Shown here: piece after piece, positions 50,344 through 56,708 of the stretch
How the letters are laid out: every line of letters starts with the position of its first letter
Numbering within the stretch: the stretch's first letter is position 1
NCBI RefSeq assembly: GCF_029714945.1
Contig: NZ_CP121634.1
Location: 496,001-560,000, forward strand
From: Bradyrhizobium sp. CIAT3101
GTDB taxonomy: Bacteria > Pseudomonadota > Alphaproteobacteria > Rhizobiales > Xanthobacteraceae
Reading direction: 5' to 3'
Length of the DNA: 64,000 nt
Notes under the pieces: generated by a model
What the model saw: only the letters and a program-made list of their open reading frames with translations
The model's database searches: none
What the model was told of the DNA's origin: nothing
Program-made: the position numbers and the translations under genes

Positions 50344-50613
50344 TTATTCAGCAGCCTCTGCGAGCGGGAGCACCGCTACGAAGGTGCGACCGTTGGCTTT
50401 GGCCTGGAATTCAACACGGCCCTCGATCTTGGCGAACAGAGTGTGGTCCGTGCCCATGCCGACATTAAGGCCGGGATGCCAGGTGGTGCCGCGCTGACGC
50501 GCAATGATGTTGCCGGGAATCACGCGCTCCCCGCCGAACACCTTGACGCCAAGGCGCTTACCCTTTGAATCGCGACCGTTGCGCGATGAACCGCCTGCTT
50601 TTTTGTGAGCCAT
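50344..50613 (-). CDS. rpmA: 50S ribosomal protein L27
   Basis: An 89-residue L27. The N-terminus [20 protein letters not shown] is the conserved sequence reaching towards the peptidyl transferase centre. [20 protein letters not shown] and [16 protein letters not shown] complete the family. It has no Firmicutes-type cleaved N-terminal extension. It follows rplU by 99 bases, the universal order. Confidence 0.98.
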
Positions 50614-50712: not shown

Positions 50713-51093
50713 TTATGCGGCGGCTGCTTCTTCTTTCGCGACCTTTTCCTTCTTCGGACGCGGGCCCTTGGTGGGCTTCGCATTGTCCGTCAGGATCTCG
50801 CTGATGCGAACGACCGTGATCTCGTCACGGTAGCCACGCTTGCGGCGCGAATTCTTGCGGCGGCGCTTCTTGAACGCGATGACCTTCGGTCCGCGCTTGT
50901 GGTCGAGCACCTCGACCGCCACGGTCGCACCGGCCACCGTGGGCAGGCCCAGCACCGGCGTGTCACCGCCGACCACCAGAACTTCGCTCAGCTGCACGAT
51001 CGTGCCGACTTCGCCTTCGATCTTGCCAATTTCCAGGACATCATCCGGAACGACGCGGTACTGCCGGCCGCCGGTTTTGATGACTGCGAACAT
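50713..51093 (-). CDS. rplU: 50S ribosomal protein L21
   Basis: A 126-residue L21 with the standard core MFAVIKTGGRQYRVVPDDVL, then KIEGEVGTIVQLSEVLVVGG and VIAFKKRRRKNSRRKRGYRD, QITVVRISEI-like (EITVVRISEIL). A Lys/Pro/Ala-rich tail extends the C-terminus by about 22 residues, common in Rhizobiales. The leader ahead of it contains a GC-rich hairpin and a GAAGGAAAA ribosome site. Confidence 0.97.
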   Translation of the reverse strand: MFAVIKTGGRQYRVVPDDVLEIGKIEGEVGTIVQLSEVLVVGGDTPVLGLPTVAGATVAVEVLDHKRGPKVIAFKKRRRKNSRRKRGYRDEITVVRISEILTDNAKPTKGPRPKKEKVAKEEAAAA

Positions 51094-51152: not shown

Positions 51153-51424
51153 TTGTCAGTCGCTATGGGTTTACTGAGTTTTGTGCGGGTGGGAGTTATC
51201 CCTTTGAAAACCCACGCAAAAACAAGCGGCGCGAGAAACGCCCCGCGCCGATTGTGGGACTTATAGCCGCCAAACCCGAAGAGTCAAGGAAAACTGCCGA
51301 AAACGGCCCGGATTGGAAGGATTTGGGCTCTTTCCCCGCCGGGCACCGAATCTCGGCCCGCGCTGCAACCAACGGGTTCCACCGCCGTTGTCCCCGCGAA
51401 TTGGCATTCGGGCAAGGGCTTTCC
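51153..51424. other. Divergent spacer between rplU and the ROK-like gene
   Basis: About 270 bases holding the upstream regions of both genes. The part near 51200-51245 reads on the minus strand CTTGTTTTTGCGTGGG and then CAAAGGGATAACTC, the best candidate for a -35/-10 pair for rplU (TTGTTT and GGATAA, 18 bases apart). The 150 bases next to the ROK gene encode an open frame in phase with it but without homology. Confidence 0.35.
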
Positions 51425-52573
51425 ATGGCAACAGACGAGCTGGTCAGGACGACGGGCATCGCCCATCACGGCGCCGGGCGGCTGCCGTCGGTGGATGTCG
51501 ACAGTTTCAACATCGAGATGAAGGACGAGGACGGCTATCTCGGCGATCGTGCCAGCAAGGGCGCGTTCCGCAAGATCCTCGACCGCTGGCGCAAGCCGCT
51601 GCGCAAGACCGGCGAGGATCCGTTCGGCAAGGAGCCGTCGGAGAGCATCAGCAAGAAGGTGCTCGACGCGATGCTGGTCGGCGACGACACCGAGGCCTCC
51701 GCCGTGGTGCACAGCGCGATCGAGGAATTCGCCCAGGAGCTCGCCTACGTCACGCGGCGTTTCCTCAAGACCAAGGCCTGGGCGAAGACCGAGCGCATCG
51801 TGGTCGGCGGCGGCTTTCGCGACTCGCGGCTCGGCGAGCTCGCGATCGCGCGCACCGACATCATCCTCAAGGCCGAGGATTTCAAGATCGACCTGGTGCC
51901 GATCCGCGCGCATCCGGATGAAGCCGGCCTGATCGGCACGCTGCATCTGGCGCCGTCGTGGATTTTCGAGGCGCATGACGCGATTCTCGCGGTCGATATC
52001 GGCGGCACCAATATCCGCTGCGGCGTGGTCGAGACGCGCTGGAAGAAGGCCAAGGATCTGTCGAAGGCGTCGGTCTGGAAGTCGGAGCTGTGGCGTCATG
52101 CCGACGATGAGCCGACGCGCGAAGGCGCGGTGAAGCGTCTCATCAAGATGCTGAAGGGACTGATCACGGAAGCCGAGACCGAAGGCTTCAAGATTGCGCC
52201 CTTCATCGGCATCGCCTGTCCCGGCGTGATCAACGAGGACGGCTCGATCGAAAAGGGCGCGCAGAACCTGCCGGGCAATTGGGAGAGCAGCAAATTCAAC
52301 CTCCCGGCGAGCTTGATCGAGGGCATTCCAGAGATCGGCGAGCACGACACCGCGATCCTGATGCACAATGACGGCGTGGTTCAGGGCCTCTCGGAGGTGC
52401 CGTTCATGCAGGATGTCGAGCGCTGGGGCGTGCTCACCATCGGCACCGGCTTGGGCAATGCGCGCTTCACCAATCGCCGCAAGGACAGCGGCAACGGCAA
52501 GGACGCTGCGGAGAACGGCAAGGACGCCGCCAAGAAAAAGGCCAAGGAAAACAACAAGAACGGCAAGGAGTAA
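51425..52573 (+). CDS. ROK family protein with apparently permuted lobes
   Basis: A 382-residue ROK (repressor/ORF/kinase) family member with unusual order. In normal ROK kinases the phosphate loop DIGGT is N-terminal and the GGG...DEAGLIGAA part is C-terminal. Here ERIVVGGGFRDSRLGELAI (about 123-141) and RAHPDEAGLIGTLHLAP (161-177) come first. They are followed by ILAVDIGGTNIRCGVVE (187-203), IGIACPGVINEDGSIEKGAQ (261-280), the sugar-contact-like NLPGNW (281-286), HND (314-316, the catalytic Asp position) and LTIGTGLGNARF (337-348). The Cys-rich zinc motif is absent. The tail (residues 351-382) is a Lys/Asn/Ala-rich low-complexity run. Sugar kinase activity is plausible but unproven. ATG 51425 begins MATDELVRTTG; longer in-frame starts overlap rplU. 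Confidence 0.85.
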   Translation: MATDELVRTTGIAHHGAGRLPSVDVDSFNIEMKDEDGYLGDRASKGAFRKILDRWRKPLRKTGEDPFGKEPSESISKKVLDAMLVGDDTEASAVVHSAIEEFAQELAYVTRRFLKTKAWAKTERIVVGGGFRDSRLGELAIARTDIILKAEDFKIDLVPIRAHPDEAGLIGTLHLAPSWIFEAHDAILAVDIGGTNIRCGVVETRWKKAKDLSKASVWKSELWRHADDEPTREGAVKRLIKMLKGLITEAETEGFKIAPFIGIACPGVINEDGSIEKGAQNLPGNWESSKFNLPASLIEGIPEIGEHDTAILMHNDGVVQGLSEVPFMQDVERWGVLTIGTGLGNARFTNRRKDSGNGKDAAENGKDAAKKKAKENNKNGKE

Positions 52574-52859: not shown

Positions 52860-53723
52860 TCAACTCCAGCCGATGCGCTGAAAGAACCCCGCGATTTCGG
52901 CCGCCGCCCGATCCGGATTCTCCCGATGCGGGAAGTGCCCGACGCCCGGAAACATCGCGAGATCAAGCTCGCTGAACGTCTCTCCCAGCCGGTCGGTCCA
53001 TTCATAGGGAAACAGCGGATCGTGCTCGGCCCAGCGCACGCAGGTCGGCAATTCGATTGGCGGAAGCTGCGGCGCTTCGCCCTTCATCATCGCGACGCGG
53101 CCTGCATGCGAGGCTCGATAATGCGCAAAGCCGCCGACGAGATTGCCGTCCTTGAAGTAGTTGTCGCCGAAGCGGTCGAGGACGTCATCGAAGGCGTCCT
53201 TGCGATGCGCCCAGTTCTTCAGGAAGTGCGCGATATAGAGCCGGCAGCTCTCGCGGCTCGCACCGACAAGCCGCGGCGCCATCTCCATCTGGTGGAAGGA
53301 TTGATACCAGATGTGGTTGAGCCGGTCGGGCGCGGCCATCCGCGGCCCGATGCCGGGATAGACGAAATCGAAGAAGAGCAGCCCGGCGAGCCGCTCGGGC
53401 GCCCGCCGCGCCAGCGGCTGCATCACAGCGCCGCCGACGTCATGGCCGACGACCCCGAATCGCGCGATGCCGAGCCCCTCCATCACGGCCAGCATGTCGG
53501 CCGCATGGCCGTCCGGCCCAAAGGGCCCGTCCGGCTTGTCGCTGTCGCCGAACCCGCGCAGGTCGGGCGCGATCAGCGTGAACCGGTCCGAAAGCCTCGA
53601 TATCACCGGCTCCCAGGTCAGCCAGAATTCCGGCCAACCATGCAGCAAGAGCAGCGGTTTGCCCGTTCCGGCGCGAACCACGTGGAATTCGGCGCCATTG
53701 GCCTTGATGTTGAGGTGCTCCAC
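52860..53723 (-). CDS. Alpha/beta hydrolase (epoxide hydrolase / haloacetate dehalogenase-like)
   Basis: A 287-residue alpha/beta hydrolase. The oxyanion motif is LLLLHGWPEFWLTWEPV. The nucleophile elbow reads VVGHDVGGAVMQ with Asp (D95) instead of Ser, as in epoxide hydrolases and haloalkane or haloacetate dehalogenases. The lid segment begins near residue 135, and the catalytic His is in FPGVGHFPHRENPD near the C-terminus. The Tyr ring-opening residues of epoxide hydrolases were not assigned, so either class remains possible. The start is GTG 53723, with GGAAGGA 7 bases upstream. The frame extending beyond it has no homology. No operon partner. Confidence 0.85.
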   Translation of the reverse strand: MEHLNIKANGAEFHVVRAGTGKPLLLLHGWPEFWLTWEPVISRLSDRFTLIAPDLRGFGDSDKPDGPFGPDGHAADMLAVMEGLGIARFGVVGHDVGGAVMQPLARRAPERLAGLLFFDFVYPGIGPRMAAPDRLNHIWYQSFHQMEMAPRLVGASRESCRLYIAHFLKNWAHRKDAFDDVLDRFGDNYFKDGNLVGGFAHYRASHAGRVAMMKGEAPQLPPIELPTCVRWAEHDPLFPYEWTDRLGETFSELDLAMFPGVGHFPHRENPDRAAAEIAGFFQRIGWS

Positions 53724-53947
53724 GGCAGTTCCTTCCAAGCAGAGCGTTTTCAAGCGAAGTGGACGCCGGTTCGCGTCAAGAAACGCGGCAAAATAAGAAT
53801 TGAGAGTCCCGTTCCCATGGAAACGGGGCTCCAGGCGAGGGGTGCAGAGAAAGAGGCAGCGATTTTCCCCTTTCGCGCCTTGTCTGTCCCGCCATCCTCG
53901 CCTAGAACACGCCCAACCGCGGGGGTCCGCCCCTGATTTGGCGCCTA

Positions 53948-54037
53948 GGAGAGGTGGCAGAGTGGTTGATTGTACCGCACTCGAAATGCGGCATAGGTGC
54001 AAGCCTATCGGGGGTTCGAATCCCCCCCTCTCCGCCA
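53948..54037 (+). tRNA. tRNA-Ser (anticodon CGA)
   Basis: A 90-nt tRNA. The acceptor stem GGAGAGG pairs with CCTCTCC. The D-arm starts TGGCAGAGTGG, and the anticodon loop CTCGAAA is closed by CCGCA / TGCGG. A long variable arm (CATAGGTGCAAGCCTATCG) marks class II, and the T-arm is GGGGGTTCGAATCCCCC. The 3' end is G followed by an encoded CCA. The anticodon CGA reads UCG serine codons. It marks the left edge of the catabolic cluster, although no duplicated 3' end was seen downstream. Confidence 0.97.
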
Positions 54038-54179
54038 AAACAAACGGCCTGAAAGCCCCGCCCTCGCATATTGAATGGTGTCGCGTCCCCTAGCGGACTG
54101 CAATCTGACGCCGCACTTGCGACCGACCGCCAAGCTTCTCCACAATGGCTCGTCTGAGACCCGCCCGAGGACCCTCCGG

Positions 54180-55133
54180 ATGACCGCCAAAATCGATCTC
54201 CTCACGCTGCAGCTCTTCGCCGCGATCGTCGAGGAGCAGAGTATCGCGAAGGCGGCGGAGAAGAAGAACATCGCTGCGTCCGCGGTCAGCCGCCGCATCT
54301 CGGATATCGAGGAGCGCTTCCAGGTCGAATTGCTGCACCGCCATTCGAAAGGGATCGAGCCGACACCTGCAGGCTTTGCCCTGCTCGAGCATGCCCGAAT
54401 CATCCTGGGAAACCTCAGCAAGCTCGAGGCCGAGCTGACGGGATTTCGGCAGGGCAAGCGCGGGCTGATCCGGGTCTGTGCCAACAAGTCCGCGATCCTC
54501 GAAGCGCTGGCCGACGAGCTCAGCCTGTTCCTGGAACGGCATCCGCTGGTCCATATCGACATCGAGGAGGATCTCAGCCCCGCGATCGTGCGCGCGGTGG
54601 TGGAGAACCGGGCCGACATCGGCATTTTCGGCGGCAACATCGACGGACAGGATCTGGAATTGCTGTCCTATCGCAGCGACAGCCTGGTCGCGCTGGTTAC
54701 GCGCGACCACCCGCTGGCGGCTCGGAGCAGCGTTCGCTTCCGCGAGCTGGTCGATTTCGACTTCGTCAGCCTGGAGAAGGGCAGCTCGATCGAGACGCTG
54801 TGCGTCAGGGCCGCCGCGGCGCTCGGGCAGCACATGAAGGTGCGCATCCGCGTCAGCAGTTTCGATGCGCTGTTCCGCGTCGTCGATGCCAGGATGGGGG
54901 TCGGAATCGTTCCGCTCGAGATCGTGCGCGACCGCTACGGCGTCGACAGTCTCGTCACCATCCCGCTCGATGAGTCCTGGGCGCGCCGCGAGCTGGTGAT
55001 GGGCGTGCGCGATTACAAGTCGCTGCCGCCGGTGACGAAGCTGCTGGTGGACCATTTGCGGAGCCACGATGATGCCGGTCTCGTCACGCGCGGCGTCTCC
55101 GACCGGCTGACGGTGGTGCGCGGCAGAAGCTGA
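54180..55133 (+). CDS. LysR family transcriptional regulator
   Basis: A 317-residue LysR regulator. The N-terminal winged helix-turn-helix is LTLQLFAAIVEEQSIAKAAE, IAASAVSRRISDIEERFQVE and LLHRHSKGIEPTPAGFALL. The effector-binding domain runs from about residue 90 and ends near residue 305. It is co-directional with the leuC-like gene 166 bases downstream and likely controls that group, perhaps through the perfect inverted repeat at 55155. It begins 142 bases after tRNA-Ser. ATG 54180 (MTAKIDLLTLQ) was chosen. Confidence 0.9.
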   Translation: MTAKIDLLTLQLFAAIVEEQSIAKAAEKKNIAASAVSRRISDIEERFQVELLHRHSKGIEPTPAGFALLEHARIILGNLSKLEAELTGFRQGKRGLIRVCANKSAILEALADELSLFLERHPLVHIDIEEDLSPAIVRAVVENRADIGIFGGNIDGQDLELLSYRSDSLVALVTRDHPLAARSSVRFRELVDFDFVSLEKGSSIETLCVRAAAALGQHMKVRIRVSSFDALFRVVDARMGVGIVPLEIVRDRYGVDSLVTIPLDESWARRELVMGVRDYKSLPPVTKLLVDHLRSHDDAGLVTRGVSDRLTVVRGRS

Positions 55134-55298: not shown

Positions 55299-56708
55299 GT
55301 GGACACGCGTGGTCGCACGCTGCTGGCCAAAATCTGGGACCAGCATGTCATCGCGCAAGTCAGCGATGACACTGATCTGCTTCATGTCGATCGCCATCTG
55401 CTGCATGACCTCGGCGGCTCCCGCGGCCTGATCGACCTCAAGAGCCGCAACATTCCGGTCCACAATCCCGAGCTGACCTTCGCGACGCCTGATCACGCGA
55501 TTTCGACCGCGTCCGGGCGCGCCGGCACCATCAAGACCGGTTGGGATCTGCTGGCGGCGTTGCGGGCCGAGACATCGGCAAGCCACATCCAGCTGTTCGA
55601 TATCGACCAGCCCGGGCAGGGCATCGTCCATGTCATCGGTCCGGAGCTCGGTCTCAGCCTGCCCGGCTGCCTGATCGTCTGCGGCGACAGCCATACCTGC
55701 ACCCATGGCGGGCTCGGCGCGCTCGCCTTCGGCATCGGCTCCAGCGAGCTCACGCATGTGCTGGCGACCCAGACCATCATCCAGCGGCGGCCCAAGACCA
55801 TGCGTGTCACGTTCGACGGCCGCATGCCGTTCGGCGTCACCGCGAAGGATCTCATCCTCGCTCTGATCGGCCATGTCGGCGCCGCCGGCGGCACCGGTTA
55901 CGCTGTCGAATATGCCGGCAGCGCGATAAGAGCCATGCCGATCGAAGGGCGGCTCACCATCTGCAACCTGTCGGTCGAGCTCGGCGCCAAGATGGGCTTG
56001 ATCGCGCCGGATGAGACGACGTTCGAGTACATCCGCGGCCGTCCCTATGCGCCGAAGGGCGAGATGTGGGAGCAGGCCGTCGCGGCGTGGCGAACGCTGC
56101 AAAGCGACAGTGACGCCAAGTTCGATCGCGAGGTGTCGATCGATGTCGCCACGATCATCCCCCAGATCACCTGGGGCACCAGTCCGGAACATGTCCTCGG
56201 TGTCGATGGCCGTATTCCGGATCCCGCAGATATTGCCGATCCGGCGCGCCGCGGCGCGATCGAGATCGCGCTCGACTATATGGGCCTGACGCCGGGCGCG
56301 CCGATTGCCGGCACCAAGGTGGATTGGGTCTTCATCGGCTCCTGCACCAACAGCCGCCTCAGCGATCTCCGCGCCGCGGCCGAGGTCGCGCGTGGCCGCA
56401 AGGTGGCGCCGGGCGTGCGGGCCTGGGTCGTGCCGGGTTCGGAGACCGTCAAGCGCGATGCGGTGGCTGAGGGGCTCGACAGGGTCTTCATCGAGGCAGG
56501 TTTCGAATGGCGCGAGCCCGGCTGCTCGATGTGCCTTGCCGCAAATGGCGAAACCGTACCGCCCGGCCAGCGCTCGGTGTCGACCTCGAACCGGAATTTC
56601 ATCGGCCGGCAGGGGCCGCGTGCCCGCACGCATCTGGCGAGCCCGGCCATGGCCGTCGCGGCGGCGGTCTCCGGTGCCATCGCCGATGTCCGAACGATGG
56701 AGCGCTAG
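55299..56708 (+). CDS. 3-isopropylmalate dehydratase large subunit-like (aconitase superfamily)
   Basis: A 469-residue LeuC-family protein with the [4Fe-4S] cysteines in the expected places: VCGDSHTCTHGGLGALAFG, FIGSCTNSRLSDLRAAAEVA and EPGCSMCLAANGETVPPGQR. The substrate-binding SVSTSNRNFIGRQGPRAR is conserved. It forms a two-subunit hydro-lyase with the adjacent LeuD-like protein. LeuCD homologues act in leucine synthesis, or as maleate, citraconate or dimethylmaleate hydratases in catabolism. The neighbouring transporter and monooxygenase make the second role attractive, but sequence alone cannot decide. GTG start with GGGAGGA 8 bases upstream. The leuD-like ATG follows the stop directly. 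Confidence 0.88.
   Translation: MDTRGRTLLAKIWDQHVIAQVSDDTDLLHVDRHLLHDLGGSRGLIDLKSRNIPVHNPELTFATPDHAISTASGRAGTIKTGWDLLAALRAETSASHIQLFDIDQPGQGIVHVIGPELGLSLPGCLIVCGDSHTCTHGGLGALAFGIGSSELTHVLATQTIIQRRPKTMRVTFDGRMPFGVTAKDLILALIGHVGAAGGTGYAVEYAGSAIRAMPIEGRLTICNLSVELGAKMGLIAPDETTFEYIRGRPYAPKGEMWEQAVAAWRTLQSDSDAKFDREVSIDVATIIPQITWGTSPEHVLGVDGRIPDPADIADPARRGAIEIALDYMGLTPGAPIAGTKVDWVFIGSCTNSRLSDLRAAAEVARGRKVAPGVRAWVVPGSETVKRDAVAEGLDRVFIEAGFEWREPGCSMCLAANGETVPPGQRSVSTSNRNFIGRQGPRARTHLASPAMAVAAAVSGAIADVRTMER

Follow-up and report, generated by a model that had tools for sequence, protein, structure and literature searches.

The 64,000 nucleotides of Bradyrhizobium sp. CIAT3101 analysed here (contig NZ_CP121634.1, positions 496,001 to 560,000; the window) carry a gene for a 382-residue protein related to the ROK family of sugar kinases and repressors, in which the two parts of the kinase fold stand in reversed order. 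An earlier note had read this order from the letters and taken it for an apparent circular permutation, and all of the motifs lie where it had placed them: VVGGGF at residues 126-131 and DEAGLIG at 165-171 come ahead of DIGGTN at 191-196, which is followed by CPGV, LPGNW, HND at 314-316 and GTGLGN at 340-345, with the Lys/Asn-rich tail behind. The ROK kinase fold has been circularly permuted in this natural protein, which covers it once in rotated order: the chain passes from the canonical C-terminus to the canonical N-terminus near residues 176-186, and it begins and ends at a site that, in canonical ROK kinases, separates the GTGxG loop from the sugar/zinc loop.

The permutation was recovered with profiles of the permuted clade, built from 8 members (alignment A1) and then from 41 diverse members (A2), and a canonical ROK profile of 19 kinases (20 drawn from 30 loci, one messy one dropped). 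No complete canonical alignment in the normal order was obtained, as in its native order the clade matched the single ROK profile over one half only (columns 72-178 to ROK 201-300, score 47.1). Against a ROK profile repeated in tandem, the native order gave one unbroken alignment (columns 72-346 to 201-440, score 83.3), and the rejoined order aligned to the single profile over columns 5-335 to 4-300 (score 78.2). The first-half profile by itself scored 46.9 against ROK 201-300, and because its reversed version reached 14.3 and the best of 100 column-shuffled versions 22.7, the order is not due to chance. For the single window protein, Pfam reports ROK over residues 188-365 (profile positions 2-156 of 294, 30.3 bits, cut-off 22.9) and no other match. 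In the search for relatives the C-half profile also found canonical-order ROK proteins (L163-L170, best stretch 14-33 bits) and the N-half profile found none.

The predicted structure supports the same conclusion. Structural alignment matched the fold to that of the ROK kinases S. griseus glucokinase (3vgk) and human GNE ManNAc kinase (2yhy) and of the ROK repressors 5f7q and 1z6r. In Foldseek the whole model placed tandem human hexokinases at ranks 1-3, with residues 34-353 aligned to 288-692 of 2nzt, which is expected of a permuted kinase because such an alignment would span two successive kinase units.

Table 1. Features of the permuted gene and the open reading frames beside it, in positions of the window (pLDDT, predicted local distance difference test score)
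Feature	Positions	Strand	Basis
Circularly permuted ROK-related gene, 382 residues	51425..52573	+	ATG at 51425, stop ends at 52573; same order in 240/240 listed homologues
Residues 22-175, later part of ROK kinases (canonical ~141-300), with VVGGGF and closing DEAGLIG	51488..51949	+	Profile comparison and structure of this half alone
Residues 183-351, first part of ROK kinases, with DIGGTN, CPGV, LPGNW, HND, GTGLGN	51971..52477	+	Pfam and structure
Residues 15-21, HGAGRLP, conserved N-terminal segment	51467..51487	+	His15 in 40/40 rows having a residue there
Lys/Asn-rich variable tail, after GTGLGNARFTN	52478..52570	+	Predicted-structure pLDDT <50 for residues 354-382
GCAAC-N16-CGTT, probable EcfG-type (general stress response) promoter, variant of GGAAC-N16/17-CGTT	51365..51389	+	Footprint in 88 Bradyrhizobium-type upstreams
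Ribosomal protein L27-like	50344..50613	-	By eye from translation
Ribosomal protein L21-like	50713..51093	-	By eye from translation
Alpha/beta-hydrolase-like	52860..54038	-	By eye
LysR-type regulator-like	54075..55133	+	By eye
Aconitase/LeuC-like	55299..56708	+	By eye

The reversed order belongs to a clade and not to one protein. Among the 240 listed homologues (two top-120 lists, in which close relatives are over-represented) 238 have VGGG ahead of DIGG, with GTG present and 12-51 residues from GTG to the C-terminus, and the other two, judged by eye, keep the order with one motif letter changed (TGGGF in one; DIGGK, with Lys in place of Thr, in P0192). All 61 of the Bradyrhizobium genomes examined carry the gene, and the named proteins among the 120 closest listed relatives are nearly all from Bradyrhizobium. 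Matches were found in 47 of 297 genomes of the order and in 9 of 240 of a class sample, while 22 of the 398 genomes of a phylum sample hold a near-full-length permuted member, the raw tally of 55/398 being inflated by weak matches to canonical-order ROK proteins. Plasmids account for 207 matches among 72,556 records (204 with coverage of at least 80%), chiefly from Rhizobium (111) and Sinorhizobium (79). In a tree of 41 members a branch with support 99/96 separates the 5 rows of another class from the rest. The names Variovorax and Roseateles, which we take to be Betaproteobacteria, appear among the matches. Among viral contigs 30 pattern matches contained no relatives, and a search of PHROGs found nothing. 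The ratio of nonsynonymous to synonymous substitution rates (dN/dS) between the window gene and each of 80 relatives (L014-L093) has a median of 0.17 and a maximum of 0.26; purifying selection acts on the clade.

Truncated or split pieces of the gene were also seen, in six genomes beside a near-full-length copy (G870, G889, G888, G873, G896, G451) and in two of the 47 order-level matches as pieces only (G501, G504, partial matches); a further locus (L006) is a broken gene. These pieces suggest repeated duplication and decay of the permuted gene. One copy (L198) lies on a plasmid in Bradyrhizobium.

The residues on which phosphotransfer would depend are retained throughout the clade. D191, G193, G194, N281, N315, D316, T341 and G128-G130 do not vary in any of the 41 diverse rows, which all carry D191-I/V-G-G-T/S-N, G340-T-G-L-G and the catalytic pair N315-D316 (compare N516/D517 of GNE and D105 of PsNagK). 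In PsNagK, a ROK kinase, changes of D6 or D105 abolished activity and T10V and T132V lost it (PMC10031466). The zinc motif GHx9-11CxCGx2G(C/H)xE has been called characteristic of all ROK members (PMC2742894); its core CxCGx2G(C/H)xE occurs in none of the 240 listed relatives, and Cys is missing altogether from 30 of the 41 first halves. The window protein holds no CxCG motif because its only two Cys are at 199 and 265, in agreement with the earlier note, which had not found CxCGxxGC. The permuted clade is thus zinc-free. Five residues are listed for the sugar site of ROK proteins, among them E566, H569 and E588 in GNE numbering (PMC2742894), and only the Asn-Asp pair was found here. Judged from these residues, the ATP (adenosine triphosphate) and phosphotransfer part of the site appears to have been kept and the acceptor part rebuilt. 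DIGGT/S, GTGLG and VGGG would still form the ATP site in three dimensions, with Asp316 of HND as the probable catalytic base, and a zinc-free acceptor pocket could have been rebuilt, perhaps from HGAxxLP, GDRAS and QNLPGNW; the profile aligns HGAGRLP (residues 15-21), with low confidence, to the position of the ExGH sugar/zinc loop. On this reading the protein would most likely use ATP to phosphorylate a small molecule held in such a rebuilt, zinc-free pocket, and we regard ATP-dependent kinase activity as rather likely. Database records give members of this one clade the names 'glucokinase', 'ROK family protein', 'NBD/HSP70 family sugar kinase' and 'hypothetical protein', of which the 'glucokinase' labels are without support because the zinc motif is lacking and no equivalent can be identified for three of the sugar-site residues.

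Upstream of many of these genes lies a candidate promoter of the general stress response. GGAAC-N16/17-CGTT is the published motif of R. etli EcfG1, and EcfG is described as exclusive to Alphaproteobacteria (PMC3892343). The strict motif was sought at 45 members outside the Bradyrhizobium chromosomal-type set, which, with one duplicate (L154) dropped, leave 39 alphaproteobacterial members (including the Bradyrhizobium plasmid copy and the broken gene) and 5 from another class. Twenty of the 39 have it upstream in the orientation of the gene, and 19 of these 20 matches lie 95-161 bases 5' of the codon for residue 15, while the first 300 bases of the gene contain it in 0/39 and the upstreams of the other class in 0/5. 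A separate scan found it in 15 of the 30 upstreams that it anchored, against a mean of 0.02 and a maximum of 1 in dinucleotide shuffles. The looser GNAAC-N16/17-NGTT is found in 86 of 88 Bradyrhizobium-type upstreams, compared with 1.9 in shuffles. Aligned, these have C, A and G at the second base in 62, 24 and 2 cases, so that the form conserved in Bradyrhizobium is G(C/A)AAC-N16-CGTT, and conservation over the seven key columns reaches 96%, versus 69% elsewhere (0/20000 random samples as high); as the 88 upstreams are related, they are a footprint and not an independent count. The copy in the window is the sole match in 64 kb, where 0.51 are expected by chance, and is not unusual alone. Taken with the neighbours described below, these promoters suggest that EcfG, the general-stress sigma factor, would transcribe the gene in many Alphaproteobacteria, and EcfG control of the permuted gene is, on these motifs, quite probable. 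The element also bears on the start codon. The open frame reaches upstream to a TTG at 50840 (577 residues), and the ATG at 51425 fits better because it lies 3' of the promoter-like element and conservation starts at about residue 15.

In the window the L27- and L21-like genes are transcribed away, so the permuted gene is divergent from rplU-rpmA. Neighbours elsewhere were taken from 20 regions (the gene caller missed the gene in 2, and 30 of the 36 immediate neighbours in the other 18 were scanned) and from 8 plasmid records, 2 of them without annotation there. A trehalose-phosphatase gene adjoins the permuted gene in Rhizobium johnstonii pRL10, in R. etli p42c and at two further loci (L179, L185), an NAGGN osmolyte peptidase gene on S. 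meliloti pSymB, and genes for the mechanosensitive channel MscS (L177), a glycine-betaine transporter (L187), DUF892 (L180) and DUF2934 (L186) at other loci; ferritin-like and PRC-barrel genes are near the copy on the Bradyrhizobium plasmid. The recurrence of stress genes is an uncontrolled tally, and there are also neighbours without a stress link, such as MlaC, carbamoyl-phosphate synthase, DNA ligase, sulphur transport and others. On Rhizobium pRL10 and p42c (L191, L194) otsB and the permuted gene are transcribed in divergent directions, with a gene set for a sugar ATP-binding cassette transporter nearby. The odds that the protein serves osmoprotectant or stress-time metabolism are about even; it would phosphorylate, for example, a hexose or polyol released or needed in the turnover of trehalose or other compatible solutes.

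The sequences therefore point, as the most likely reading, to a zinc-free kinase that uses ATP to phosphorylate a sugar or polyol and is probably induced by stress. For the full combination, in which a permuted ROK fold forms an ATP-dependent kinase with a zinc-free acceptor pocket, is transcribed by EcfG and acts in osmoprotectant or stress-time carbon metabolism, we estimate a probability of roughly 0.6. Several results weigh against parts of it. Searched alone, the first half of the predicted structure had no Foldseek match at E 0.001, and VIA-align gave it a Z of at most 9.2, a value that the tool itself rates as only moderate; as a single sequence it had no Pfam match. Rejoining raised the single-sequence Pfam score clearly in one of three proteins (L005, from 38.1 to 43.5 bits, with full-length coverage when rejoined), left L009 at 37.8 native and 37.9 rejoined and lowered that of the window protein (P0001) from 30.3 to 28.0 bits; single-sequence Pfam alone would not settle the permutation, which the profiles and the structure do. 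At the sugar site E566 and H569 align to the variable residue 14 and Ala17 and E588 to a gap, with low local confidence, and since none of the three has an identifiable equivalent a sugar acceptor is not assured. As to the promoter, the 20 strict matches are not independent, seven coming from one genus (g265), and the GGAAC form is absent from 19 of the 39 upstreams and found in 0/88 of the Bradyrhizobium type. The opposite strand carries the motif in 6 of the 39 upstreams, which is above chance and perhaps comes from divergent stress genes; such copies may serve genes like otsB. Finally, no neighbour is conserved across 22 neighbourhoods, and because the top family, which is unannotated, occurs in no more than 5/22, no operon argument can be made.

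If the protein had kept the fold and lost the reaction, it might be a sensor of ATP or a sugar-like ligand, or an ATPase, that regulates stress metabolism, much as ROK repressors bind sugars. Such repressors are known non-kinase relatives (PMC12696579), and the absent zinc motif, the three sugar-site residues without identifiable equivalents and the varying neighbours would all suit this role. However, none of the 41 rows departs from Asp316 or from the Thr and glycines of the phosphate loops, residues that would be needless without catalysis, and Pfam reports ROK and no DNA-binding domain, which makes a non-kinase unlikely. An ordinary glucokinase that is merely permuted, turning glucose and ATP into glucose-6-phosphate, is equally improbable in our judgement: some records are named glucokinase or sugar kinase, and an adjoining otsB in Rhizobium fits a supply of glucose-6-phosphate for trehalose-6-phosphate synthesis, but a glucose site retaining only the Asn-Asp pair of the five ROK sugar-binding residues (PMC2742894) argues against it.

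Two further explanations concern the order itself. A first half taken from another ASKHA family, such as pantothenate kinase, would make the protein a fusion instead of a permutation, and we consider this very improbable. The chance of an artefact, be it frameshift, misassembly or accidental motifs, is negligible, given the same order in all listed relatives, the gene in every Bradyrhizobium genome examined and the low dN/dS, and no support for it was found. Beyond the permuted, stress-induced kinase preferred here, a wider history can be offered tentatively, at somewhat less than even odds: one ancient permutation of a ROK protein would have founded a zinc-free alphaproteobacterial kinase clade that was later shared with another class, the new termini beside the sugar/zinc loop would have freed a new acceptor site, and the gene would have been recruited to the EcfG response as a core osmoprotectant step in rhizobia.

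With the ROK sugar kinases (PF00480; 3vgk, 2yhy) the protein shares both parts of the fold, DxGGT/S, the N-D catalytic pair, GTGxG and VGGG, and differs from them in the reversed parts, the missing zinc-motif core, the sugar-site Glu/His/Glu that are not identifiable and the new N- and C-termini between the GTGxG and zinc loops. The ROK repressors of NagC/Mlc type (5f7q, 1z6r) have the same fold; unlike them, the permuted protein has no DNA-binding domain that we could find, its catalytic and phosphate residues are invariant and its order is reversed. Group A (non-ROK) glucokinases of Gram-negative bacteria belong to the same superfamily and are said to have lost the characteristic ROK domain, whereas their glucose active-site residues are fully conserved (PMC12696579). 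Since the protein passes the Pfam cut-off and has DxGxT, GTGxG and the Asn-Asp pair, and lacks two defining features, the canonical order and the zinc motif, it belongs with ROK by descent and fold and should not be filed as an ordinary member.

The earlier note knew of no description of such a form, and we found none in the open-access papers searched; the string 'permut' is absent from the main text, as far as it was available, of a 2025 review of the glucose kinase superfamily (PMC12696579). Kinase fold groups may include relations by circular permutation or segment swap (PMC1079889), and a segment swap relates ADP-glucokinase to 2-dehydro-3-deoxygluconokinase (PMC2213659). In these cases too segments are reordered and the architecture kept, but the portion of PMC1079889 searched does not mention 'ROK' and the example of PMC2213659 is of another fold.

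It is unusual, in our judgement, for a natural circular permutation to have become fixed within a large, well-studied family of enzymes. The permuted form seen here is widespread among nitrogen-fixing bacteria, where labels such as 'glucokinase' and 'ROK family protein' conceal it, and its recognition would correct rhizobial annotations. It is a naturally occurring case in which to gauge how much the hinge and acceptor site of a hexokinase-type kinase can tolerate new chain ends. The protein is also a candidate for an unassigned step in the osmotic and general stress response, and such a step would matter for nodulation because misregulated trehalose synthesis explains the symbiotic defect of B. 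diazoefficiens general-stress mutants (PMC8092242).
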